From: an uncultured Marinosulfonomonas sp.
GTDB lineage: Bacteria; Pseudomonadota; Alphaproteobacteria; Rhodobacterales; Rhodobacteraceae
Length of the DNA stretch: 46,496 bases
Assembly: GCA_947311455.1 (NCBI GenBank)
Contig: CAMZKY010000123.1
Span: 1 to 46,496, forward strand
Direction: 5' to 3'
Under the pieces are notes generated by a model, which saw only the letters and a program-made list of their open reading frames with translations, did no database searches and was not told the DNA's origin. How positions within the stretch are numbered: the stretch's first letter is position 1; every line of letters begins with the position of its first letter. Below, piece by piece: positions 32,087-46,496 of the stretch. The position numbers and the translations under genes were made by a program.

Positions 32087-34336
32087 ATGCCATTTCGATC
32101 TTTTTCCATTTCACACCCGCGCCGCAAGCGGCTATCTCGGATTGCTTTTGCCGGTGCTGTAACGCTTGCCCTCATTCTTGCTACGATCCTAACCATCAGC
32201 GTCGAAACCAGCACGCGCTTTAAAAATATCCGAAGCGGGTGGCAAGAATACTCTCAGGATGCCAATCCACGGGGTATTTGGATTTCGGAAATTCGCGGGT
32301 ATTTCGGCTATGGGGGAATGATCCACAATTTTAAAAACTTTGTTCTGCGCAAAGATCAGCGCTATGCACAACGGCTGAATTCCCAAACTACGTTTTTACT
32401 CGCAGCGATTGATTCATATCTACAATCCAACCCTGATCCGGTAGAACGCGACGCTCTGTTAGACATCCGCACGGTTGTTGAACAATACTCTGCTAATATT
32501 GAAATCATTACAAAATCCATACACATTGGTTTAAATGCTGAACAAATCGACGCAAAAGTGCGTGTGAATGACAGCAACGCATTGCACGCCCTTGAAATAT
32601 TAGAGCAGCACTGGCGCAAGCAGCGGCAACGCAGTTTGAACTCTATCGTTTCCGCCCTTTCGGATGGCGACGCATTGGTGCGATCTTTGGCTGGCCTAAT
32701 GGTGTTTCTAACATTCCTATTGGCTACGATCGCGGTGCTCATCTATATCCTAATTCGCAACGTTCTGCGCAGCAATGCCGCACAAATTACTGAATTACAG
32801 GCACGAAAAACTGCGCAAGAACAAGAACGCAAACTTGCGTGGGTTGTTCAACAAAGCCCAGCCTCTATTCTTATTACCGACACGGATGGGAAAATCGAAT
32901 TTGTTAATCATAAACTGTTGGAACTAACAGGATATCAAGAATCCGAACTGATTGGAAAATGGCCCAGCATCTTAAAATCCGGCCACACATCGAGCAGTGA
33001 TTATGATAGTATCTGGGCCAATCTACGCCAAGGGATCCCTTGGTTCGGCGTGTTTAAAAATCTGCGCAAAGACGGAAGCTATTACTGGGCCTCAACAAGC
33101 CTTTTGCCTCTATTGAACGAAGAAGGCCAAATAACAAATTACATCGGCGTAGGCGAAGATATCACAGAAAAACGCCGCGTGGACGAGCAAATTGCGCAAG
33201 TGCAGAAAATGGAGGCTGTCGGGATCCTGGCTGGTTCTGTTGCCCACGATTTCAACAATGTTTTGATGACGATCATCGGCAATACAGAATTGATCAAGCT
33301 GGAATTCGAAGACCAAGACACGCCCGAAGAAATTGATACGTCTCTCAGTCACATCAAAATTGCATCCAACCGCGCGCGCGCGCTCATTCAGCAGCTGCTT
33401 ACTTTTGCGCGCCATCAACCTGAACAAACCCAAAGGATCGAGGTAAACAGCGCCATAGAAGAAGCACTAGAACTGATCCGTGTTTCAACGCCGGCCACAA
33501 TAGATGTAACCTTTAACTCAGGCATAGATCAAATTGGCGTTGATATTGATCGCACCGCTTTCTTCCAGATCATCATGAATCTCTGCCACAATGCAGTGGA
33601 GGCGATCGGAGATCGTGGGGGTGCGATCACAATTAGTCTTGATCATATCCAGATTGAGGACAAAAATAACGGGCTGAGAATCCTACCAGACAACGCATTG
33701 GGCACCGTTAAAATCGAGATTATCGATGATGGCCCCGGTATTCCTCAGGATATTCAGGAAAGCATTTTTGAACCCTTCTTTTCAACCAAGCCGGTTGGCA
33801 AGGGTACGGGGCTTGGCCTGTCTATTGTGAAAAATTGGGTTGTCGAAGCGGGTGGTCAGGTGCACCTGAAAAGCTCACGGTACAAAGGCACACGTTTCAC
33901 CTTGCTATTTCCTGAGTTCGTCGCAAAAGAAGACGAAACCCAAGCAATGGCTCGCCCCCCAACCGGTGTTGAGCATATCTTGCTCGTCGATGACGAAGAA
34001 GAGCTGCTTTATGTTTTACGCCGGATGATGGCCCGCCTAGGATATCGTGTCGAAGCCTTTTCCAATCCTTCGCTTGCCCTTCATGCCTTTCGAACAAACC
34101 CTGATAGCTATGATGCGGTTGTAACAGATATGATGATGCCTGAAATGAATGGCACTGAACTAATCACAAACTTGCGTACAGTACGAGCCAATCTACCCGC
34201 AATGCTTATCAGTAGTTACTTAGGAAACAAGCCCGGATCAGACGATTTAAAAGGTGTTCTTAAGGTTAACAAACCCGTCAATATGCTAGGGCTGGCAATT
34301 GCCTTACGAAAAACACTAGACACCTCCGTTTCTTAA
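32087..34336 (+). CDS. Membrane PAS-domain hybrid histidine kinase with C-terminal receiver
   Basis: 749 aa; TM segments, PAS (ILITDTDGKIEFVNHKLLELTGYQESELIG), SVAHDFNNVLMTIIGN H-box, HATPase motifs, receiver HILLVDDEEE...VVTDMMMPEMNG. Confidence 0.93.
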   Translation: MPFRSFSISHPRRKRLSRIAFAGAVTLALILATILTISVETSTRFKNIRSGWQEYSQDANPRGIWISEIRGYFGYGGMIHNFKNFVLRKDQRYAQRLNSQTTFLLAAIDSYLQSNPDPVERDALLDIRTVVEQYSANIEIITKSIHIGLNAEQIDAKVRVNDSNALHALEILEQHWRKQRQRSLNSIVSALSDGDALVRSLAGLMVFLTFLLATIAVLIYILIRNVLRSNAAQITELQARKTAQEQERKLAWVVQQSPASILITDTDGKIEFVNHKLLELTGYQESELIGKWPSILKSGHTSSSDYDSIWANLRQGIPWFGVFKNLRKDGSYYWASTSLLPLLNEEGQITNYIGVGEDITEKRRVDEQIAQVQKMEAVGILAGSVAHDFNNVLMTIIGNTELIKLEFEDQDTPEEIDTSLSHIKIASNRARALIQQLLTFARHQPEQTQRIEVNSAIEEALELIRVSTPATIDVTFNSGIDQIGVDIDRTAFFQIIMNLCHNAVEAIGDRGGAITISLDHIQIEDKNNGLRILPDNALGTVKIEIIDDGPGIPQDIQESIFEPFFSTKPVGKGTGLGLSIVKNWVVEAGGQVHLKSSRYKGTRFTLLFPEFVAKEDETQAMARPPTGVEHILLVDDEEELLYVLRRMMARLGYRVEAFSNPSLALHAFRTNPDSYDAVVTDMMMPEMNGTELITNLRTVRANLPAMLISSYLGNKPGSDDLKGVLKVNKPVNMLGLAIALRKTLDTSVS

Positions 34337-34438: not shown

Positions 34439-35059
34439 ATGGGATTAGCATTCAAGCCTTATAAGGATTCGCCCGATTACAACGTAATTGATGTCATCCT
34501 TGATCGCCACTCGGTTTCACCAAAACGGCTTGATTTTCCGGGGCCGGATGAAATTCAAATTCACACAATGATCTCCGCTGCGGCGGCAGCACCTGATCAT
34601 GGAAAGCTGCGCCCTTGGCGTTTCATTCAGTTTCCAACGGAGCACCGCAAAGCGCTGGCTGATATATTCGAAGCCGCTCTTTTGGAGCGCTTGCCCGCCG
34701 CCGATCAAGATTCTTTAAACCGTGCACGCGAAAAAGCCAGCCGCGCACCGGTTTTATTGGGCTTGATCCTTAATTTGAATGCAGATGCAACAATCCCCCA
34801 TATTGATGATCAAATCGCATCTGGCGGTGCAGCATTACAGAATCTTTTATTGGCAACACACGCAATGGGCTTTGGTGCCCGCGCTCTGAGTGGGCAAGCC
34901 GTCAGAACCAATGTGTTTCGCAAAGCATTGGGGCTAAGCGACAGCGAAACTTTCCTGTGTTTCATCGCAATCGGAACCCCTACAGCCGCACCAAAGCGTA
35001 ATCAGAGGCCAGCGCCCGAAACAATTTTAAGCCAATGGAATGGCAAACCAAATACCTAA
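34439..35059 (+). CDS. Nitroreductase family protein
   Basis: 206 aa; AAAAAPDHGKLRPWRF and LLLATHAMGFGARALSG. Confidence 0.88.
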   Translation: MGLAFKPYKDSPDYNVIDVILDRHSVSPKRLDFPGPDEIQIHTMISAAAAAPDHGKLRPWRFIQFPTEHRKALADIFEAALLERLPAADQDSLNRAREKASRAPVLLGLILNLNADATIPHIDDQIASGGAALQNLLLATHAMGFGARALSGQAVRTNVFRKALGLSDSETFLCFIAIGTPTAAPKRNQRPAPETILSQWNGKPNT

Positions 35060-35069
35060 AGGCACCCTT

Positions 35070-36314
35070 ATGAATATCCAGCCTAACACCGCTTCATCCT
35101 GCTGTGATCGCCCCGAAATAACACTCATACCGCTTGATGTTGCTATCGCACGGGGTATTGCCCTAACCGAACCGGCCCAAGAATTGGAAACCATTCCGTT
35201 GGAAAAATCAATTGGTCGGGTTCTGGCAAATAAAGAAGTTTCCCCCATTCCGCTACCGCCTTTCAACAATTCCGCGATGGACGGATATTTGATATCGACC
35301 TCCAGCCTAAAAGGTAAAGGCCCGTGGTCTTTGGATGTAATAGGCCGGATCGCTGCCGGCGATGCTGGAAATGCCGCGCCCCAGCCCAATACTTGTTGGC
35401 GCATTTTTACCGGTGCACCAGTGCCGGACGGGTTTGACACCGTTATCATGCAAGAAGACGTTGATCGCATCGACGATACAATTCACTTTAGCCGTAAGCC
35501 TAAAACAGGGCAGCATATTCGCGCCAAAGGTGGTGATGCAGAACAAGGTCAAACCGTCGTGCCTGGCGGTGTGGAAATCGGCCCACGGCAGATCGGCGCT
35601 CTTGCGGCGATCGGTGCCGGAACGGTTACTGTCCGTCGCCGGATTCGAGTTGCCATTTTTTCGACAGGCAGCGAATTACGCCACCCCGGCGAGCCATTGG
35701 GTGCGGGGCAAATCTGGAACTCCAATCGTTTTACATTGCTTGCGCTGTTAAACAAAGGATGGGTCGAAATTGTTGATATGGGTGCAATAGCAGATAATCC
35801 CGAAGCCCTGAAAGTTGCGTTAAAAACGGCGTGTGAAACCTGTGATATCGTCGTAACAACAGGGGGTGTTTCCGTTGGCGACGAAGATCATATGCCGCGC
35901 CTTTTCACTGAATTGGGCGGCGAAACACATGTGATGAAAGTTGCGATTAAACCCGGTAAACCGATCACTTACGGTAAACTTGACAAAGCTGTATTCATCG
36001 GCCTGCCTGGTAATCCTGTTTCAGCATTCGTCACGTGGATGGTAATCGGTGCACGAATTTTGGAGCGTCGCGCAGGCATCGAAAACCACGCACTATCGCG
36101 CGTTCAAACGCGCATCTCAAGCGATATCCATCGCCATGCAGGGCGCGTTGAATTCCGGCCAGCAAAATCCATCAACGGGTCTGAAATCGAATTGCTAGAC
36201 GGCACTTTTTCGGCACGCGTGGCGATGCTCTCTCTTGCAGATGGTCTTGCGGTTATTCCAGCCGAAGCAACGCATATTTCCAAAGGCGACACACTGGATT
36301 TTATCCCGTTTTAG
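35070..36314 (+). CDS. moeA: Molybdopterin molybdenumtransferase MoeA
   Basis: PLPPFNNSAMDGYLI, IFTGAPVPDGFDTVIMQED, IFSTGSEL, TTGGVSVGDEDH, GKPITYGKLDKAVFIGLPGNPVSAFVTW; start refined to ATG 35070. Confidence 0.95.
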   Translation: MNIQPNTASSCCDRPEITLIPLDVAIARGIALTEPAQELETIPLEKSIGRVLANKEVSPIPLPPFNNSAMDGYLISTSSLKGKGPWSLDVIGRIAAGDAGNAAPQPNTCWRIFTGAPVPDGFDTVIMQEDVDRIDDTIHFSRKPKTGQHIRAKGGDAEQGQTVVPGGVEIGPRQIGALAAIGAGTVTVRRRIRVAIFSTGSELRHPGEPLGAGQIWNSNRFTLLALLNKGWVEIVDMGAIADNPEALKVALKTACETCDIVVTTGGVSVGDEDHMPRLFTELGGETHVMKVAIKPGKPITYGKLDKAVFIGLPGNPVSAFVTWMVIGARILERRAGIENHALSRVQTRISSDIHRHAGRVEFRPAKSINGSEIELLDGTFSARVAMLSLADGLAVIPAEATHISKGDTLDFIPF

Positions 36315-36399: not shown

Positions 36400-37773
36400 T
36401 TATCCGCTATTACTAGCCCGGCATTGTCTCGTTGGTTGTTCTAGATCATCAATGATCTTTCCAGCCACTTGCCCAGCCGTTTCCATACAATTCGAAACGG
36501 AAACACCGTTCAAGTAGTTCCCGGTTAGATGCAGCCCCTCAACCCTTTCAGAAGTTGAAGATAAAACCGTTTCACGAGCGCGGTGGCCGATCGTATATTG
36601 TGGCAATCCAAGCGCCCAGCGACGGGTGCGGTGGATCACCGGCGCACCTTTGATTTGCAGGGTGTCGGATAGTTCCGCGTGAATTTGCGCCACCAAATCA
36701 GATTCGGGCATTTGCGCCAATTCGGGATTGCGTGCGCCACCGGCATAGGCGGAAATGGCAACGTATCCATCAGGTGCGCGACCTTGATACATGGTGCTGG
36801 GGAACTGTACGCCCGAAATGATTTTGCCATTTTCCCGCGTGGTCAAAAATCCCAACCCATCCAGCGGATGCGCGACCTGTTCTTGTTTGTATCCCAGAAA
36901 CACCACATTAATCGGCGGAGCGATAATGTCGCCTGCCACGATGCTGGCGTCGGGATCAAGATTTTCCAACATGCCCGCCGCAACATGCGGCTGTACGGCC
37001 AGAACAACCGCCCGGGCCGCACGCGTTCCGGCGCTGGTTTTGATCTGAAACCCTGTGGAGGTTTTGCCGATGCTATTCACCGCCACGCCCGTATGAATAC
37101 GCGCGCCCAGCCTTTTGGCCAAAGCCGCTGGAATACTGGCAATCCCACCGCCCCACGAATACAAATGCCGCCCGGGTTCCGAACCGCGCTTAGCCGCCAA
37201 AATACCACGGGTGATCGAGCCGAACTTCTGCTCAAGCTCATGTAATTTTGTAAATGCCCCCGCGATAGAAAGCTGATGTGAATCGCCCATAAATATCCCT
37301 GCCGCCATCGGATCAATCACTTTGTCGGCAAATTCTCGGCCAAAACGGCGGGTGGCAAAGGCGTGGATTGTTTCCTCGGTTTTGTCCATTTTACGGCGTC
37401 TTAGGCCCTCAAACAGGATCGAAAACCGCGCTTGGGGTGATAGATAATTCGACATGAAAAACCCAAGCGGGTTTGTTGAAATGCCGGTTAGCTTACCCTG
37501 ATTCAGCAGGTAGCGTTTCTTAACCCCTTCGCCCAGATCATGCGCAGTCTTTAGCAAGCCCAACCGATCAATCTGTTTCAAAGCATCCGGCATTGAGGCA
37601 TTAAAGGTGGTCGGCCCTTGCTCCATCATAAAGCCGTTGAAACGGTCGGTGATGGCGTTGCCGCCCACGCGGACTTGGCGCTCCAACACTTGCACATCCA
37701 GCCCTGCCAACATCAAGGCGTGCGCGGTGGCAAGCCCGGAAATGCCGCCGCCGATGACAATCGCATCATGCAT
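36400..37773 (-). CDS. HemG/HemY-type protoporphyrinogen oxidase-like flavoprotein
   Basis: From ATG 37773 (MHDAIVIGGGISGLATAHALMLAGLDVQVLE): FAD GxGxxG motif; C-terminal GLHLTGNYLNGVSVSNCMETAGQVA. Overlaps the upstream gene end. Confidence 0.85.
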   Translation of the reverse strand: MHDAIVIGGGISGLATAHALMLAGLDVQVLERQVRVGGNAITDRFNGFMMEQGPTTFNASMPDALKQIDRLGLLKTAHDLGEGVKKRYLLNQGKLTGISTNPLGFFMSNYLSPQARFSILFEGLRRRKMDKTEETIHAFATRRFGREFADKVIDPMAAGIFMGDSHQLSIAGAFTKLHELEQKFGSITRGILAAKRGSEPGRHLYSWGGGIASIPAALAKRLGARIHTGVAVNSIGKTSTGFQIKTSAGTRAARAVVLAVQPHVAAGMLENLDPDASIVAGDIIAPPINVVFLGYKQEQVAHPLDGLGFLTTRENGKIISGVQFPSTMYQGRAPDGYVAISAYAGGARNPELAQMPESDLVAQIHAELSDTLQIKGAPVIHRTRRWALGLPQYTIGHRARETVLSSTSERVEGLHLTGNYLNGVSVSNCMETAGQVAGKIIDDLEQPTRQCRASNSG

Positions 37774-39043
37774 TTTTGTTGCCTCGCATCCGCCTGACAA
37801 ACGCCGGTGGCCCCGCGTCTCCAAAACGGCGTTTTGCCAGCAGGGTAAGATCATCTTTGGTGACCTCTGATCGCCCTTCACCGCGCACATAATCTTCGGC
37901 ACGGCGACGCACCATGCGGCGAACAAACCCGGGCACACGCGCAATATGGCTTTCCGCGTCGTCCGACCAGTGCATAGTGATGCTGGCAGGGATCATCGGC
38001 GTAATCACAGCGCCGCCTTTAGGTTGATAGGTGCAAAGCGTGTCTTCGCCCATCATATTGCCACCCAGCGCCAAAGGCCGCGCGCGGCAGCCGCCACACA
38101 GGATTTTAAATTCGCACGCGCCGCAGCGCCCTTCTAATTTCGGCGCACGCAGGGCATTCAACACCGGCGCGTCATGCCAGATTTCAGTAAAGGATTTTTC
38201 TTTAACCGATCCGGCAGAATTTTCCATGTATGGGCAGGGCGTTACATCACCCGTGGGCGTAATGCGCGCGTATCGCGTGGCAGCAATACACCCTCCGGCA
38301 TCATAGCCATGCGCGGCAGTAATGGGCCATTCTGGATCCATTTCAATGGCGATGCGTTTAAAATGTGGTGCGCATTTGGCCCGCACCATCAAGCGTTTTT
38401 CCCGTTTGGCAGCCTTGGCGACGCGTCGCAGAACGTGATCATATTTCTCCGGCGAAATACCTGAATATTTTTCGCCACGCCCCGTGCAAACCATGAAAAA
38501 CACATTCAGCACCATTGCGCCAGCATCGCGGGCAAAGGCAACCATATCGTCAATTTCGTCGGCGGTTTCATCAGTGGCTGAAAAATGGATTTGAAACGGC
38601 ATTCCGGCGTCTTTGCAGGCATCAATACCTTGCATCGTTTTGATCCACGCGCCTTTTTTGCCGCGAAAATTATCGTGCTGATCAGGGTTCAGGGAATCAA
38701 CTGAAATGCCCACACCTGCCACGCCGGCCTGTTGTAATTCCTTGATCCTGTCATGGCGCAGCAGCATGCCGTTTGTGCCCACCACCACCATCAAACCCAA
38801 ATCGCTGGCGTGGCGCGCCAGTTCGGGCAGATCACGGCGAAGCATGGGTTCGCCGCCCGTTAGTACAACCATGGCTTCGGGGCCGACCTCGGCAATTTCG
38901 CCTAGCACACGTTTTAGATCGGCGGTGTTCAATTCATCCACCGCGCCCTCTTTTAAAACTTTGGCGTCAAGGTAGCAGTGTTCGCAGGCAAGATTGCATC
39001 GTTCGGTCAGGTTCAAAGCAATCAGATAAGGAGCATCGGCCAT
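37766..39043 (-). CDS. NirJ/AhbD-like radical SAM protein with SPASM-like cysteines and PCP_red-like C-terminal domain
   Basis: 425 aa; LTERCNLACEHCYLDA (CX3CX2C), C-rich CPYMEN...RCGACEFKILCGGCRARPLA, tail WSDDAESHIARVPGFVRRMVRRRAEDYVRGEG. Confidence 0.85.
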   Translation of the reverse strand: MADAPYLIALNLTERCNLACEHCYLDAKVLKEGAVDELNTADLKRVLGEIAEVGPEAMVVLTGGEPMLRRDLPELARHASDLGLMVVVGTNGMLLRHDRIKELQQAGVAGVGISVDSLNPDQHDNFRGKKGAWIKTMQGIDACKDAGMPFQIHFSATDETADEIDDMVAFARDAGAMVLNVFFMVCTGRGEKYSGISPEKYDHVLRRVAKAAKREKRLMVRAKCAPHFKRIAIEMDPEWPITAAHGYDAGGCIAATRYARITPTGDVTPCPYMENSAGSVKEKSFTEIWHDAPVLNALRAPKLEGRCGACEFKILCGGCRARPLALGGNMMGEDTLCTYQPKGGAVITPMIPASITMHWSDDAESHIARVPGFVRRMVRRRAEDYVRGEGRSEVTKDDLTLLAKRRFGDAGPPAFVRRMRGNKNA

Positions 39044-39046
39044 GGT

Positions 39047-40702
39047 TTAGCCCCGATCCTCGGGGCACATGGCAAGGCGGGCATTAGCAAAGGCGTCGTC
39101 CTCGATTGCGGCATCAATCACCGTAAGTCCACGTTTCTTGGCAAAGTTTTCGATGCTGGTTTCCACCTGATCGCGGAAGGACTCGGGCACCCGTTGTAAC
39201 CGCGCCAAAGATGCTGCGCGCCATTCGATACCACCTCGCTCACGAATGCTAGGTTTTCGTGTCGATTCCGCCATAAACGGCTCAATATGTTCCACGGATA
39301 CCACATTAGCCGCATCGCGTCGCGCCGATTTTTCGGCCCGAAGCTCGATATTTTCGCGCACCTGTTTATCTGTGATTCCATCCAGCATGGTGCGGGCATC
39401 TTCGGCCCATTTCAGCCGTTCAAATTGTGCCTGCGGGGCATCTCGATCACCGCCACCACCGGGCATCATTTTCGACATCACCTGTTCAACAAATTTCGTG
39501 GTGATAAAGGTGTGGCCTTCTTTTTGCGCCTGCCGGATTACCCCCGTACGCGCCATGCCGCGCACAAATTCAGGAGCGCGGTTGATCATTTCGCTGGCCT
39601 CGTCCGACCACATGATGGTTTCCTCGGCAACCACATCCGAAGGCGGATAATATTCAACCATCCCAACCCAAACGTGACACGGCACCATGCGCAACAGGTT
39701 TTCCGTATTGCCGCCAATATCCAGCCCGTCATCGGCATGCACACCGGTTTTACCAACCACCAACAAAGACGCGCCATGTTTTTCAACGTATTTCTTGATC
39801 GCCTGATAGGGTTTCCCGGCCAACAGTTCAGTGACGATTTCAACGCTCGCATCCTGTGCCACGGTTTGGGCAACGTTCAGGTGTGCCTGATAAATTTTTG
39901 CAATGCCGTCATCAATCAGTTCTTCGTGCAGTTGTTCTTGTTCCTTGAAACGAAACACCTTGCCCGCCTCTTCATCCAGCACTGTCGAAATCTTGTTGAA
40001 CGCCACATAGTGATAGTAGGGATCATATGCCGCCACCACATGCACAGGCACCTCCAGACGTTTGCCAATATCCAGCGCCGTCATCAAAGCGCCGAATGAT
40101 TTTGGCGATCCGTCCATACCCACAACAATCGGGCCGTCGCCAATATTCATCCGGCGGTCTTTGGCGACAAATACGTCCATATTGGTGCGGCGAACCACGC
40201 GTTCGCAAACCGTGCCGATGGTCGATCCTGCAACAGCCCCAAGACCAAGTGCGCCGATGAACAGTGCATCATGTTCGTTCCGGTTCATCGCGCTTATCAG
40301 GCAGGTATAATTCTTGCCCTCGGGCGACAAGCGTTTAAACGGCACATTTGCCGCCTTTGAAACTGTTTCGGCTGCATCGTGATAGCTGTCGGAGATCAGA
40401 CCCAAACCCATGCCAATCAGATCTTCGTGGACTTCGCGCTGATGCTCCATCTCGCTTTCCCGTTGATAGCGTTCCGGCAACCCTCCTTCCATCTGTTTAA
40501 AACGCCGATCATGCAGGCGCGCGGCGTAGGCATGAATGCCTGTGATTGTATCCGTACAAAGGCGGGTTGCCTGTTTCATTGCGTTATTGGCGTAATCGGA
40601 TTGATCCAGCGCCACCATAATACGCGCCATAGATACTGGGGCATCACCTGCAGCGCCTTTGGTGCCTTCGGTGCCTTCGTCTATTGCCAGATTTACAACC
40701 AT
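39047..40702 (-). CDS. Tandem universal-stress-protein domains with C-terminal PCP_red-like repeats
   Basis: 551 aa; two USP-like segments (RIMVALDQSDYANNAMKQA and PIVVGMDGSPKSFGALMTALDIGKRL), then MWSDEASEMINRAPEFVRGMARTGV, LKWAEDARTMLDGI, IEWRAASLARLQRVPESFRDQVETSIENFAKKRG. Confidence 0.8.
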   Translation of the reverse strand: MVVNLAIDEGTEGTKGAAGDAPVSMARIMVALDQSDYANNAMKQATRLCTDTITGIHAYAARLHDRRFKQMEGGLPERYQRESEMEHQREVHEDLIGMGLGLISDSYHDAAETVSKAANVPFKRLSPEGKNYTCLISAMNRNEHDALFIGALGLGAVAGSTIGTVCERVVRRTNMDVFVAKDRRMNIGDGPIVVGMDGSPKSFGALMTALDIGKRLEVPVHVVAAYDPYYHYVAFNKISTVLDEEAGKVFRFKEQEQLHEELIDDGIAKIYQAHLNVAQTVAQDASVEIVTELLAGKPYQAIKKYVEKHGASLLVVGKTGVHADDGLDIGGNTENLLRMVPCHVWVGMVEYYPPSDVVAEETIMWSDEASEMINRAPEFVRGMARTGVIRQAQKEGHTFITTKFVEQVMSKMMPGGGGDRDAPQAQFERLKWAEDARTMLDGITDKQVRENIELRAEKSARRDAANVVSVEHIEPFMAESTRKPSIRERGGIEWRAASLARLQRVPESFRDQVETSIENFAKKRGLTVIDAAIEDDAFANARLAMCPEDRG

Positions 40703-40740
40703 ATCATTTCTCCAGTTTTTGACCCCTGTTCAGGTCCGTG

Positions 40741-41589
40741 TTAAATGTCTTTTGCGCAGCGGAATCCGACAAACTCGGCATATGAATTCGTGTAGTCCCA
40801 CAAGCGATTGCTTGCGACGGTCATGTGCGGCCTCCCGTTCCAATTGTTACCTTTGATATAAGCACAAGGTTCGCCCGGCACCGATTCATCCAATGCGTCA
40901 GGGGCCGCGCAAAGCGCGGGCAAAACCCCGCCATTATCGGCCTTTAACTGCGCCAAAAGTTCCAGCATCTCGGGCGTGGCATTTCGTGTATCAACCACGC
41001 TGTCGCGGCATTGGCCTGCGCGGGCTACGCGCGAATCGGCCACCCATTCCGAAACATTGCCCGCCAAGCCGCGCACGCCGTATGGGCTGATATCTTGCAC
41101 AAAACCATTGATTGAAACCGGGGCAATACCGCTGATATTAGCACGGGTCAGATCGGGATCATTGCCCCATGGATAAATTTGCCCATCCACCCCGCGTGCG
41201 GCCTTTTCCCATTCGATTTCGGTTGGCAGACGTTTACCTGCCCATGCGCAATAGGCGATCGCATCATCGTATAAAACGCCGGTCACTGGCTGATTCGGTT
41301 GATTAAAGTATTCGTCATCGTAGAACGCCGAAGGTTCATGGCCTGTTTCAGAGACAAATTCACCGTAATTCGCGTTTGTAACCTCGAATTTGTCAATCAA
41401 AAACGCGTCTACATTATAGGGCATCGGGCCATATAATCCTGTGTAATAGACATAACCCAACACCGCAGGGCCAGCAGGCACCACGACCATGCCTTTTTGA
41501 CCCATCAGGGCAAGTGCTGAGTAAGCCCCTGCCCCTAATGTTATCACTGCGATAGCAGCAATTATTTTGGATTTCAGTTGAATAACCAA
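40741..41589 (-). CDS. SUMF1/FGE-fold protein, N-terminally membrane-anchored (NirV-like)
   Basis: 282 aa; FEVTNANYGEFV, DAIAYCAWAGKRLPTEIEWEKAARG, GNVSEWVADS, FVGFRCAKD; TTG start, N-terminal TM. Confidence 0.85.
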   Translation of the reverse strand: MVIQLKSKIIAAIAVITLGAGAYSALALMGQKGMVVVPAGPAVLGYVYYTGLYGPMPYNVDAFLIDKFEVTNANYGEFVSETGHEPSAFYDDEYFNQPNQPVTGVLYDDAIAYCAWAGKRLPTEIEWEKAARGVDGQIYPWGNDPDLTRANISGIAPVSINGFVQDISPYGVRGLAGNVSEWVADSRVARAGQCRDSVVDTRNATPEMLELLAQLKADNGGVLPALCAAPDALDESVPGEPCAYIKGNNWNGRPHMTVASNRLWDYTNSYAEFVGFRCAKDI

Positions 41590-41684
41590 TACCCCAATAA
41601 CAACGTCACTACCGCCACATTCACCAAAGCGCCCGCCAGAACAAACACATCAAACGTGTTGATTTTTTTCCATTTATTCATCAT
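41574..41684 (-). CDS. 36-aa single-TM microprotein (absent from ORF track)
   Basis: Manual translation MMNKWKKINTFDVFVLAGALVNVAVVTLLLGYWLFN; ribosome-site-like CGGAG upstream; overlaps the SUMF1-like start by 16 nt. Confidence 0.6.
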   Translation of the reverse strand: MMNKWKKINTFDVFVLAGALVNVAVVTLLLGYWLFN

Positions 41685-41708
41685 CGCGCGCTCCGGTTGT
41701 TTTTGGAT

Positions 41709-42449
41709 TTAGTAGGACAGTTCCATCGTTGCTTCGCCACCCGCATTAACAGTGACGGTTCCAACCTTTTTCTCGCCCAAGAAGCCGTGCCACATCATCA
41801 CATTATATTCGCCGGCGGGAATATCAGTGATCGAAAATGCACCGTTTTCATCAACAACAGAAAAATAAGGTGTTTTGGCAACGTAAACAAAGCTGTGCAT
41901 GAAATCATGCGCGTCGCATTCTACTTTCATACCGTTGCCGCGGCGCAGTTTAACCAGTTTAGTAACTGTATCGCCTGCGTTTGGTTGAGATACGTTCATC
42001 ACGGTGCGACGGGATTTGCCGATTTGTTCGTAGGTGTGGATGTTGTGCAGCGTGTGATCCGAATTCACCGCGGTAAGTTCACCTTTGTTGGCCATAACAC
42101 CCAAAGCCGGGGAAAATTCGCAGGCTTCTTGAGTCAAGGTCAGCGACATCAGTTCTTCGGGCATGGCTTTGCCTTCTTCGATGTCGGCAAGGAATACAAC
42201 CGCGTTCTTAAGTGTTCCGTTTTCATTGATTTGCACAAATGGCACTTCGCGTGATCCTTCGCCGCAAATTTCGGGATCTTTTGAAATGGTGTAGGTGCGC
42301 GTATCGGCCGTGGCGTCGCCTGCAGCGACGGTGCCAACAAAGCTGCCACCATTTGCAACATCAACCACTTTGTATCCTTTGGCGTTGGCGGTTGTGGCCA
42401 TACCCAGCATTGTCAACGCAATCGCGGTTTTGGTGATTAGGTTTTTCAT
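41709..42449 (-). CDS. Exported protein with possible cupredoxin-like domain and a C-terminal carboxypeptidase-regulatory-like domain
   Basis: Signal peptide MKNLITKTAIALTMLGMATTANA; HTLHNIHTY ... VECDAHDFMH possible type-1 Cu ligands; ISVVDENGAFSITDIPAGEYNVMMWH-type tail (FSVVDENGAFSITDIPAGEYNVMMWH). Confidence 0.7.
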   Translation of the reverse strand: MKNLITKTAIALTMLGMATTANAKGYKVVDVANGGSFVGTVAAGDATADTRTYTISKDPEICGEGSREVPFVQINENGTLKNAVVFLADIEEGKAMPEELMSLTLTQEACEFSPALGVMANKGELTAVNSDHTLHNIHTYEQIGKSRRTVMNVSQPNAGDTVTKLVKLRRGNGMKVECDAHDFMHSFVYVAKTPYFSVVDENGAFSITDIPAGEYNVMMWHGFLGEKKVGTVTVNAGGEATMELSY

Positions 42450-42478
42450 ATTTGTTTCCTTTGTTAATTAATCGTAGA

Positions 42479-44677
42479 TCAGGCTACATTTTGCAGCGCT
42501 GGTTCATTTTCAACGGTTTGAACCAGCTCGGACAAGGCATCGATTGCCACCAGCCAGCGGGTTTTTTGCGTCTCGTCCCCCAGCATCTTCAGCAAGCGTT
42601 TGTATCCGGCAACGGGGGCGTATTGCCCCAACAACTTGCCAATATCGCGCCGATAGGTGCCGTCATTTTCACTGGCAAACACCACCAGCGCATCGACAGC
42701 TGTGTCTCCGTACTGACGCGCCAGCGCGCGGGCAGCGGCAATGCCGACGCCCATGTAAGAATCGTTCAGGGCACCGATGATAGGATCGGAAACCTCGTTA
42801 CGTTGAGCGATGGCTTGAACGGCCTCAACGCGAACCAAGGGATCATCGTGGCTTAACAATTCAAGCAACTTTTCAGTCACATAATCGTCACTAATCTTGC
42901 CCAAAACACGCACGGCCAATACCCGTGTTTGGGAATCTTCGTCTCCAAAAAACCCTTTCAGATTTTCAAGGATATCAGATGAAAGCGTGTTTGTGGTTTC
43001 GCCGTGTTTGGCGAGCGAAAATAGAACCGCTTGGCGTGCTTCCTCATCAATATCAGCATTCATTGCCTCGACCAGCGCGGCAGTGACATCGGGTTTAACG
43101 ATGCTACCCAATAGGCGCGCTGCGAACCGCTGCACATCCAAATGCGGCGCGGCGGCCGTTTCCCATGATACTTTGCGCTTGGCAAATTTATGCACTTTAG
43201 TGCGTTCCAGCGCGGCTTGATCCTGTTCCGACAGAATAATTTCTTCTGGCTCGGCCACAGGTTCGGCAGGTTCATTCGCCATGATTGCATCAAGGGTTGA
43301 TTGCGGCTTGACGGGTTGTTTTTTCAAAGGCAGATCGGCGTCAATTTCCTCGTAGATCTCTTCCAGCTCGGCCGCCGATGGCTCCGGCGCCTCCTCAACG
43401 ATTTCAGGTTCAACTTCTTCCTCTTCGGGTGGAAGAACCAATTCACCTTTTAACGCTGACAACAGCGCATCGCTTGCAACGTTAGGCCATTCCGGATCGT
43501 TCGCAGCGATCTGCGCAAGGGATGTCATGCTGGACAGGCGTAATTCGCGGTCTTCGTCGCCTGCGGCCTCCATCAAAGCAGGCACACCCAGTGTTCCAGC
43601 GCGCTCAAATGCCTCGATCACGCCAACGCGAAAATCGCGAGGAATATCGGCATTGCCGATCACGTGGGTTAAGCCTTTGACGGCTTTAGGGCCTTTTAGC
43701 GCAATCACCGCCATTGCGGCCTCTTTGGCGGCTTTGGGCTCGCCTTTGATCGCCTTTTGAACGGCATCAATCAAATCTTTATCGTCAAATATTTCGGGCT
43801 TAGCCGAGATCACTTTGAAAACCTCGGCTCGCACGGCGTCGGATTGATCGCGGATCATATCCCACAGCAATGTCGGATTTTGCGCGCCAGCGTGTTTCAC
43901 CACGGCGGCGCGAACCGCTGCATCATCATCGCCAAACAGAGGAATCAGGTTTTCATCGGATGGATCAAGATTCAAAATCGCCAAAGCGCGGATCTCGGCA
44001 TTTTTATCGCCAATCAATCCCGCGCGCAACGCAGCCAGATCGGGATTGCCCGATTCGCCAACCGCCCGCACAATGCGACGGCACATGCGATCGTCGCCTT
44101 GACCATACAGTTCAATCACCGCCATCGCCCCGTCTGGCCCCATGTTGCACAAGGCGCGCAGGCCAGCTTCGGTTAGATCCTGATTTTCAGGGTCGGCCAT
44201 TGCGGTTACGATTTCAGGCACCGCATCAACATGCGCGAAAACCGCCAGCCCTTCCAGGGCCAGCATTTGCACGTCAACCCAATCATCCCAACCGGAGTTA
44301 AAGAATTCGTCTTCGTCCCATGCAATTTTATCTTCAGCACGAGAAATGACCAAGGCGCGCAGATACGGCACTACGGGATCAAATTTCATTGCAACCAACG
44401 CCTTGATCGCGGCCTTTTTTACGTCGGCATCTGGATCGCCCAGCAGGTTGTCCATCAGTTTTTGCGCGGTAGCAGGATCGTTGATTTGCAACAACGCATT
44501 CGCCGCATCGACGCGCACGTCAGGATCATCATCCAGCAACGCAGCAACCAGTGCTTCGGTCACATTTGGAAGGTTGAAATTACCCAAGGCCTGAGCGGCA
44601 GCACACCGGTGAACATCGGCGCCGTCTTTCAGCAGGGATACAAGTTTGTCACTAATTTCGGTTTTCATCGATTTCAC
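42479..44677 (-). CDS. HEAT-repeat protein, probably cytoplasmic, two repeat blocks separated by an acidic linker
   Basis: 732 aa; repeated (D)(A/V)R(V/A)xAAxAL patterns such as DDDPDVRVDAANALLQI and DPDADVKKAAIKALVAM; linker PPEEEEVEPEIVEEAPEPSAAELEEIYEEI; no signal peptide. Confidence 0.88.
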   Translation of the reverse strand: MKSMKTEISDKLVSLLKDGADVHRCAAAQALGNFNLPNVTEALVAALLDDDPDVRVDAANALLQINDPATAQKLMDNLLGDPDADVKKAAIKALVAMKFDPVVPYLRALVISRAEDKIAWDEDEFFNSGWDDWVDVQMLALEGLAVFAHVDAVPEIVTAMADPENQDLTEAGLRALCNMGPDGAMAVIELYGQGDDRMCRRIVRAVGESGNPDLAALRAGLIGDKNAEIRALAILNLDPSDENLIPLFGDDDAAVRAAVVKHAGAQNPTLLWDMIRDQSDAVRAEVFKVISAKPEIFDDKDLIDAVQKAIKGEPKAAKEAAMAVIALKGPKAVKGLTHVIGNADIPRDFRVGVIEAFERAGTLGVPALMEAAGDEDRELRLSSMTSLAQIAANDPEWPNVASDALLSALKGELVLPPEEEEVEPEIVEEAPEPSAAELEEIYEEIDADLPLKKQPVKPQSTLDAIMANEPAEPVAEPEEIILSEQDQAALERTKVHKFAKRKVSWETAAAPHLDVQRFAARLLGSIVKPDVTAALVEAMNADIDEEARQAVLFSLAKHGETTNTLSSDILENLKGFFGDEDSQTRVLAVRVLGKISDDYVTEKLLELLSHDDPLVRVEAVQAIAQRNEVSDPIIGALNDSYMGVGIAAARALARQYGDTAVDALVVFASENDGTYRRDIGKLLGQYAPVAGYKRLLKMLGDETQKTRWLVAIDALSELVQTVENEPALQNVA

Positions 44678-44728
44678 GCTCCTCGAAAACTCTTCAGGAT
44701 AGCGTAGGTCGATTCCGAAATTCGATCA

Positions 44729-44742
44729 TTGACGCACGTCAA
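44729..44742. promoter_or_regulatory. CRP/FNR-superfamily-like dyad TTGAC-GCAC-GTCAA
   Basis: Perfect inverted repeat TTGACgcacGTCAA; centre about 59 nt upstream of the HEAT-repeat ORF start. Confidence 0.5.
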
Positions 44743-44750
44743 CAATAGGT

Positions 44751-44782
44751 TTGACGGCCCGCGCAATCGCATGGGCCGTCAA
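44751..44782. repeat. Perfect 10-bp stem hairpin TTGACGGCCC / GGGCCGTCAA
   Basis: Arms 44751-44760 and 44773-44782, 12-nt loop. Confidence 0.7.
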
Positions 44783-44795
44783 TTTGTCACAGGAG

Positions 44796-44824
44796 GTCAG
44801 GGCAGCCCTAAAGGTTGCCCTGAC
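44796..44824 (-). terminator. Hairpin just 3' of the molybdoenzyme gene (possible terminator or mRNA 3'-end stabiliser)
   Basis: Arms GTCAGGGCA 44796-44804 and TGCCCTGAC 44816-44824, perfect 9-bp stem; no clear T tract on the minus strand. Confidence 0.45.
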
Positions 44825-44831
44825 TATTTTG

Positions 44832-46496
44832 CTAAACTTCGATGTCGCGCGGTGCGAACGACATTGAGCGGAAGCTGTGTTTATAGGGCGATTCACCAAT
44901 TTTAGTGATTTTCGCTACACCCATTTTGTAGTTGTAGTTCCCGCTGATCCAGTCAACCACACGCCCAGCCAATGCGTTAGCAGGTTGGCTATAGTGCAAG
45001 AAGTCCATATACATGACGCCTTTTTTGGTTGCCCGGGTCACTATCGCAACGGCCGTGATCGAGGCTTCCGAGAACTCGACGTTGCCATTGGCCAATTGAC
45101 CGGTGAAGGAATAATCAGAGCCTTCTACACCCAAAACGGTGTCTTTCAGGGATGGCACGCGGTCATTCGACAACAGAACCATATCGCCACTTTCGATACC
45201 GCGTGCTGCGGCATCTTCGGTGTTGATTTCAACCCAGTTATCAGGCCAACGCTGAACGATGTAAGGACGACGTGTATCATCGAAACCCGACTGCCAACGC
45301 TCGTTCGCACGACCAGATGTGCACCACAGCTCATCACCTTTTGGTTTCATCCATTCCCAATAATCCGAGAACAATGACCAAGGCGATTTCTGGATGTTGC
45401 ATTTGCCCGTTTGTGAATTGAAATGTGTCAATTTCTTGTTGAACATATTCATTGCAGTTGGGCCATCTTTAGGCAACACGCGGGTTGTGTCATGCAAGCG
45501 CACGGTTCCCACCAACGAACCATCGTCGTTCATGTAAACAGGGGCTTGAATGCCATTGGTTCCCATTTCACGGAACTTCGCATGCAGTGTTTTGCCTTCA
45601 CGATGTGCAGCAACTTTGACCATATTAAAGTCTTTGCGGCTACCACGGGTGAATTTAGCTGCTTCTTCGGCAACATCATTGGAATCTTTCCAATCAAAGC
45701 CTTCAAAGCCCATTTTCTTGGCAAGTTGCGAGATGATCCACCAATCAGGTTTCGCTTCGCCCGGTGCATCGTAGAATTTTTGATACAAACGAACGCGGCG
45801 TTCACCATTTGCACGCAAGAAATCTTCTTCGCCCCACGTTGCGGCAGGGAAGATAATATCGGCAAATTGGTTTCCAATCGGATCAACCAGATAGATGTCC
45901 TGATTCACAACAACCATACCGCCGCTATCCACCCGCGCTTTCAGGGTTTCAAGAATTTTTTCGCGGTTGATTGATTGAATTTGGTGCGGGTTACCGCGTG
46001 TCAATTCATGGAATCGTTGTGACAACTGTTGCGAGCCAAGCATGGATTGAATCCATGTCGTGCCGATAACGTGGGCCATACGGGTGTGACCCGCCATTGT
46101 CCAGGTATCAGTATCTAGCGCACGACGGCGACGACCAGGCAGTTTCATTGGTGATTTATTGCGAGGATACCCGCCACCACCGACACCACCACGTTGGTGA
46201 CCACCGGCACGCCCGATCATTTGACCCGGACGTCCACCAGCACCAACAGTAATACCCAATGCGGAAATCGCTTGTGTATTGCCAGTGTTGTTTGACCAAT
46301 AGAAGCCTTTTTCGATCATGATCGATGTTTTGACCCGCGATCCGTCTTCTTTTGGTTTTGCCATCATTTCAGCAGCCAGCTGAATTTTCGCAGCGTCGAC
46401 GCCGGAAACTTCAGCTGCGGCGTCTAGTGCAAACTCGTCTTGTGACAACAGCCATTTTGACCAATCGTCAAAGCCTTTTGTCTGGAATTTGCCCCA
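44832..46496 (-). CDS. Molybdopterin oxidoreductase large subunit, arsenite-oxidase-like (AioA/IdrA branch of the DMSO reductase family); N-terminus beyond the window
   Basis: Frame is open to the window edge (...WGKFQTKGFDDWSKWLLSQDEFALDAAAEVSGVDAAKIQ). IGRAGGHQRG, GRANERWQSGFDDTRRPYIVQRWPDNWVEINTEDAAARGIESGDMV, ANALAGRVVDWISGNYNYKMGVAKITKIGESPYKHSFRSMSFAPRDIEV. Confidence 0.85.
   Translation of the reverse strand, partial: WGKFQTKGFDDWSKWLLSQDEFALDAAAEVSGVDAAKIQLAAEMMAKPKEDGSRVKTSIMIEKGFYWSNNTGNTQAISALGITVGAGGRPGQMIGRAGGHQRGGVGGGGYPRNKSPMKLPGRRRRALDTDTWTMAGHTRMAHVIGTTWIQSMLGSQQLSQRFHELTRGNPHQIQSINREKILETLKARVDSGGMVVVNQDIYLVDPIGNQFADIIFPAATWGEEDFLRANGERRVRLYQKFYDAPGEAKPDWWIISQLAKKMGFEGFDWKDSNDVAEEAAKFTRGSRKDFNMVKVAAHREGKTLHAKFREMGTNGIQAPVYMNDDGSLVGTVRLHDTTRVLPKDGPTAMNMFNKKLTHFNSQTGKCNIQKSPWSLFSDYWEWMKPKGDELWCTSGRANERWQSGFDDTRRPYIVQRWPDNWVEINTEDAAARGIESGDMVLLSNDRVPSLKDTVLGVEGSDYSFTGQLANGNVEFSEASITAVAIVTRATKKGVMYMDFLHYSQPANALAGRVVDWISGNYNYKMGVAKITKIGESPYKHSFRSMSFAPRDIEV

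Follow-up and report, generated by a model that had tools for sequence, protein, structure and literature searches.

Dissimilatory iodate reductases are encoded in idr clusters, of which the gene order P2-P1-B-A with two di-haem peroxidases is the hallmark (PMC8692401, PMC10989891), and three marine aerobes carrying Idr homologues in such clusters, Roseovarius azorensis included, reduced iodate at low oxygen (PMC11445184). For bd-like proteins of the OR-N type in nitrite oxidisers, a role in O2 reduction driven by cytochrome c has been proposed (PMC12342949, PMC10839748). The cluster described here lies at the end of a stretch of 46,496 nucleotides from an uncultured Marinosulfonomonas sp. (contig CAMZKY010000123.1; the whole stretch is called the window), and combines an idr-type molybdoenzyme gene with bd-like, EB_dh and tetrapyrrole-type genes. 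Our preferred reading (probability about 0.55) is an oxyanion reductase, probably of iodate, coupled via c-type cytochromes to a bd-family complex with a special heme, which would come from a universal stress protein (USP), a radical SAM protein and a protoporphyrinogen-oxidase (PPO)-like protein.

The window corresponds to contig C123 in a metagenome-assembled genome (MAG) of 2.64 Mb, the close relatives of which bear the name Marinosulfonomonas. Between positions 36400 and 46496, seven long open reading frames (ORFs) and one transmembrane (TM) ORF of 36 amino acids (aa) follow one another head to tail on the minus strand, either overlapping or separated by short gaps. An earlier note on this DNA had claimed eight ORFs plus the microprotein; its own list held seven, as found here, and its family assignments agreed with the Pfam and NCBIfam profiles by which protein families were assigned:

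44832..46496, minus strand: idrA-type molybdopterin oxidoreductase of 892 aa, of which the C-terminal 554 are encoded here and the remainder on contig C170 (L004:11509-12663)
42479..44677, minus strand: HEAT-repeat protein, 732 aa, with neither signal nor TM segment found
41709..42449, minus strand: exported cupredoxin-fold protein with a C-terminal carboxypeptidase-regulatory-like (CarboxypepD_reg-like) domain
41574..41684, minus strand: conserved 36-aa single-TM microprotein, its stop overlapping the TTG start of the following gene
40741..41589, minus strand: SUMF1/FGE-like (FGE-sulfatase-like) protein with an N-terminal anchor
39047..40702, minus strand: tandem USP fold with three C-terminal PCP_red-like helical repeats (Usp + PCP_red)
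37766..39043, minus strand: radical SAM/SPASM protein nearest NirJ2/AhbD, with a PCP_red tail
36400..37773, minus strand: HemG/HemY-type PPO-like flavoprotein (amine-oxidase/PPO), its start at 37773 giving an 8-base overlap with the radical SAM gene

The window ends within the large-subunit gene, and the terminal 141 bases of contig C170 of the same MAG are identical to the window end (141 bp overlap); joining the two contigs gave a large subunit of 892 aa. Co-oriented and in sequence, C170 encodes a CydA-like protein (588 aa), a tri-haem cytochrome c (375 aa), a tri-haem cytochrome c with an EB_dh domain (755 aa) and two di-haem CCP_MauG proteins. An IdrB/AioB-like Rieske subunit bearing a twin-arginine translocation (Tat) motif follows, and then the large subunit's N-terminal part; a divergent Fnr-type regulator gene and a ferrochelatase gene lie ahead of the cydA-like gene. 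The Rieske subunit, c-type cytochromes and di-haem peroxidases that the earlier note had advised seeking beyond 46496 were thus all present. In the complete chromosome of a relative (G001) all thirteen genes were contiguous. Other genera and families likewise retain the gene order (the comparison took in 80 of the 198 named relatives; carriers were mostly MAGs), which indicates that the cluster is not a product of chance. Gene content, order and linkage, like the kinship, cofactor motifs and co-occurrence given below, were observed directly.

On sequence grounds, the large subunit is of the idrABP1P2 (iodate reductase) type and not AioA, which sharpens the earlier description of an AioA/IdrA-like enzyme. 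In a tree of 55 sequences, of the kind the earlier note had proposed, 51 IdrA-type sequences separated from four AioA sequences with full support, and the window sequence and the Azonexus type fell in different subclades. The P2-P1-B-A synteny with two di-haem peroxidases was present (C170 plus window; G001), IdrB carried the Tat motif, IdrA lacked a signal, and the 3Fe-4S cysteines and Rieske motifs were found. The AioA active-site His, Arg and His were kept; AioA membership was ruled out by the tree, the replacement of Glu by Ser and the linked peroxidases. Arsenite, iodate and another oxyanion had all been left open as substrates; kinship and synteny with idrABP1P2 narrow these towards iodate, with the subclade's differing active site (see below) keeping part of that openness.

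The window IdrA grouped with those of other compact clusters (80-94% identity), followed by long-form clusters (78-80%), clusters with idr and HEAT genes only (73-75%), a Vibrio plasmid copy (66%), and Azonexus, Thiothrix and one Rhodobacteraceae group (50-52%). The plasmid copy belongs to an unannotated idrP2-P1-B-A cluster on a 1.7 Mb plasmid of Vibrio sp. THAF190c (L023:10269-15680). Judged by molecular weight, the R. azorensis IdrA may be nearer the 52% than the 74% group, although weakly so. The literature search found no paper on iodate in Azonexus. A further molybdopterin oxidoreductase of the window's genome (L003; G000:C28:18874-19569) had 27% identity.

The CydA-like protein scored above the PF01654 cut-off. 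In alignment to Geobacillus CydA, His63 and Glu150 were invariant among the CydA-like proteins, and Tyr143 replaced the other Glu. The quinol-site GRQPW motif occurred in 0 of 50 CydA-like sequences; taken together, these features make it unlikely that the proteins oxidise quinol, and cytochrome c could plausibly supply the electrons, in keeping with what has been proposed for OR-N proteins.

The cluster occurred in several forms. The compact form reads cydA-cytC3-EBdh-P2-P1-B-A-HEAT-cupredoxin-mini-SUMF-USP-RSAM-PPO, and the long form P2-P1-B-A-HEAT-cupredoxin-cydA2-cyt-cyt-EBdhB-cyt-cyt-cydA1-cyt-cyt-EBdhA-USP-RSAM-PPO; further forms held Idr and HEAT only, Idr only, or, in Gallionella and Ferrigenium, the module without Idr. 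Carriers of the module, with or without the iodate-type enzyme, came from low-oxygen seawater, sponges and iron-rich sites. In the CydA tree, Gallionellaceae sequences nested among marine Rhodospirillaceae. Module loci first taken as Idr-free (context II) were not so in alphaproteobacteria, where longer stretches placed idrA further upstream in long-form clusters; NirS as a partner at these loci was ruled out, the 591-aa protein being a cytochrome c/EB_dh protein.

Among 386 alphaproteobacterial genomes, USP-PCP_red was found in 10, the CydA type in 11 and IdrA in 12. All 10 USP-PCP_red genomes were CydA-positive and 7 were IdrA-positive; 5 of the 12 IdrA genomes lacked both USP and CydA. With the window's own genome excluded, Fisher p was ~2e-17 for USP-CydA and 9e-9 for USP-IdrA, both inflated by shared ancestry. 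At 38 loci with enough flank, each USP gene had a CydA-type or IdrA gene in view. No IdrA-type match was found for the module relatives in Gallionella, Ferrigenium, Thiothrix and Beggiatoa. The tetrapyrrole-type genes track the CydA-like/EB_dh cytochrome module, not the molybdoenzyme, given the 10 of 10 against 7 of 10 and the module without IdrA in Gallionella and Ferrigenium. The co-occurrence survey proposed earlier therefore bore out a conserved gene set, in gene order across genera and families and in the USP-CydA link; the tetrapyrrole set proved real and co-occurring, but its supposed dedication to the molybdoenzyme gave way to a link with a module outside the window.

The model of the USP protein showed a tandem USP fold with three helical repeats (predicted local distance difference test, pLDDT, 76). 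The radical SAM tail matched the B subunit of light-independent protochlorophyllide reductase (PDB 2ynm chain D); the Gallionellaceae radical SAM proteins (L100:11701-13839, L099:11665-13752) had three PCP_red repeats, against one in the window's. The PPO-like protein scored 251.6 bits with TIGR00562 (cut-off 97.85) and, in cluster-bearing genomes, the cluster's own was the one protein above that cut-off. These genomes also encode HemJ elsewhere, although a search of the window MAG, which is incomplete, found none; two Idr-only genomes had HemJ and no TIGR00562 protein above the cut-off. A second ferrochelatase was linked to the cluster in four genomes (G000, G001, G007, G433), and two others with Idr and the module had a single copy. 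In the window's genome the second copy (L004:399-1397) adjoins the operon and the housekeeping copy is on C24.

Neither a published USP/PCP_red module nor a publication on the whole gene set was found in the literature search, in line with the earlier proposal of an undescribed system. Tentatively, at less than even odds, a so far undescribed pathway may consist of USP-PCP_red, the radical SAM-PCP_red protein, the PPO-like protein and, in some genomes, the second ferrochelatase. It would supply the CydA-like/EB_dh complex with a heme that is new or modified, and the complex may have moved between low-oxygen marine iodate-type operons and iron-oxidising Gallionellaceae.

Substrate, direction of electron flow, and identity and destination of the tetrapyrrole we infer as follows. 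The window holds the downstream half of an operon of thirteen genes plus the microprotein gene in a Marinosulfonomonas-like alphaproteobacterium, running cydA-like, tri-haem cytochrome c, tri-haem cytochrome c/EB_dh, idrP2, idrP1, idrB, idrA, HEAT, cupredoxin, microprotein, SUMF1-like, USP-PCP_red, radical SAM-PCP_red and PPO. IdrAB, exported by Tat through IdrB, would be a periplasmic oxyanion reductase, most likely of iodate, and IdrP1/P2 would remove peroxide-type by-products. Electrons would run along a dedicated c-type chain made up of the cytochromes, the cupredoxin and the CydA-like/EB_dh complex in the membrane; this is probably an oxygen reductase of the bd family, linked to cytochrome c and working under low oxygen beside or instead of IdrAB. 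USP-PCP_red, radical SAM-PCP_red and PPO, in some genomes with the linked second ferrochelatase, would make a special tetrapyrrole and deliver it to that complex.

Iodate reduction in low-oxygen seawater shapes the marine iodine cycle, and the electron route to the enzyme is unclear; the operon offers a dedicated electron chain and a bd-family partner open to testing. The heme-type genes tied to the CydA-like protein give a handle on which heme bd-like complexes carry and on its maker, and are relevant to iron oxidisers and marine bacteria alike.

Several points weigh against this interpretation. The position of the AioA active-site Glu was Ser (or Ala) in this clade and Asp in the Azonexus group, so that the substrate may differ, and the Idr proteins with biochemical tests behind them, those of Pseudomonas SCT, Denitromonas IR-12 and Roseovarius azorensis, lie outside the set of 55 sequences in the tree. 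The radical SAM protein scored 309 and 296 bits with NirJ2/AhbD against cut-offs of 500, below both. In G452 a CydA-like relative was present and neither USP nor IdrA was detected, the missing USP being the adverse part.

The best-surviving alternative, although unlikely, is a chain running in reverse, in which IdrAB would oxidise iodide or another donor and hand the electrons over to the cytochromes and the cupredoxin, from which they would reach the bd-like complex and then O2, on the pattern of Nitrospira nitrite oxidoreductase and OR-N type CydAA'. AioA, the nearest relative with a solved structure, is an oxidase, the OR-N proposals in nitrite oxidisers offer a parallel, EB_dh domains resemble heme b subunits of type II molybdoenzymes, and an oxygen-reductase-like gene ill fits a purely anaerobic reductase; however, the Idr homologues cited above bring about iodate reduction when oxygen is low, related clusters commonly have no bd-like gene at all, and among the named carriers are MAGs from oxygen-minimum zones, a setting in which iodate is expected to be reduced. 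It is more doubtful still that IdrP1/P2 or the c-type cytochromes, rather than the CydA-like complex, are what the tetrapyrrole-type genes provide for: these genes share one operon with P1/P2 in many genomes, but G558, G584, G592 and G741, with Idr and P1/P2 and no module, lacked a USP gene genome-wide, and Gallionellaceae carry the module without IdrA. It is very improbable that the USP/radical SAM/PPO set serves heme synthesis for housekeeping or stress and is present by chance: members of the PPO and radical SAM families do take part in ordinary heme synthesis too, but HemJ and another ferrochelatase are encoded elsewhere, and the set occurs in only ~3% of the sampled alphaproteobacterial genomes and follows the CydA-like gene.

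The exported protein, noted earlier for a possible Cu motif, was modelled as a cupredoxin fold (pLDDT 86) that matched cupredoxins and laccase domains, with H135/H138/C178/H181/M184 invariant. The previously unlisted microprotein at 41574-41684 is, by its conservation, a genuine gene: ~37 loci matched at E < 1e-7, and weaker relatives lie within long-form clusters. Its likeness to CydX is one of size only. For the SUMF1-like protein the family likeness held, but its last 80 residues hold no FGE catalytic Cys pair; its gene occurs in compact clusters only. The HEAT gene follows idrA also where the bd-like module is missing.

Three genes neighbour the cluster:

35040..36314, plus strand: moeA, which adjoins several related clusters
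34439..35059, plus strand: nitroreductase-family protein, a neighbour kept in close relatives only
32087..34336, plus strand: PAS histidine kinase with a receiver domain

The kinase is a possible candidate sensor for the operon; relatives of it also adjoin idr clusters in both the 74% and the 52% group.

A NosZ-like protein was rejected as a module member, being essentially confined to Gallionellales with one further copy in a distant MAG. The Gallionellales protein (L100:6809-8644), encoded between EBdhA and USP, had nos_propeller, beta-propeller and cupredoxin matches and was distant from ordinary NosZ; a 73% relative is in the genome of L054 (G427). The CydA-like, cytochrome c and EB_dh genes at L216:11008-16245 (G452) represent a more distant form of the module.

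Compared with known systems, the cluster is like the idrABP1P2 island of Pseudomonas SCT and Denitromonas IR-12 (PMC8692401) in its P2-P1-B-A order, Tat-signal Rieske subunit, two di-haem peroxidases and molybdopterin large subunit without signal. It differs in that the window sequence is ~50% identical to the Azonexus type, with Ser for Asp at the active-site position, and in being joined to bd-like, EB_dh and tetrapyrrole genes, unmentioned in the papers searched. It shares with arsenite oxidase AioAB (NT-26, PDB 4aay) the fold, 3Fe-4S cysteines, Rieske partner and active-site His/Arg/His, but differs in ~30% identity, the replaced Glu, a separate clade and linked peroxidases. In motif and gene number the cluster's CydA family is like OR-N type CydAA' of Nitrospira/Nitrospinota, as it lacks GRQPW and the long-form cluster has two CydA paralogues; unlike there, the cluster's CydA is linked to EB_dh/tri-haem proteins and the heme-type gene set. 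The best radical SAM matches are NirJ2/AhbD and its tail resembles BchB/ChlB PCP_red through PDB 2ynm chain D, whereas scores fall below the family cut-offs and PCP_red is fused to a radical SAM protein and to a tandem USP.

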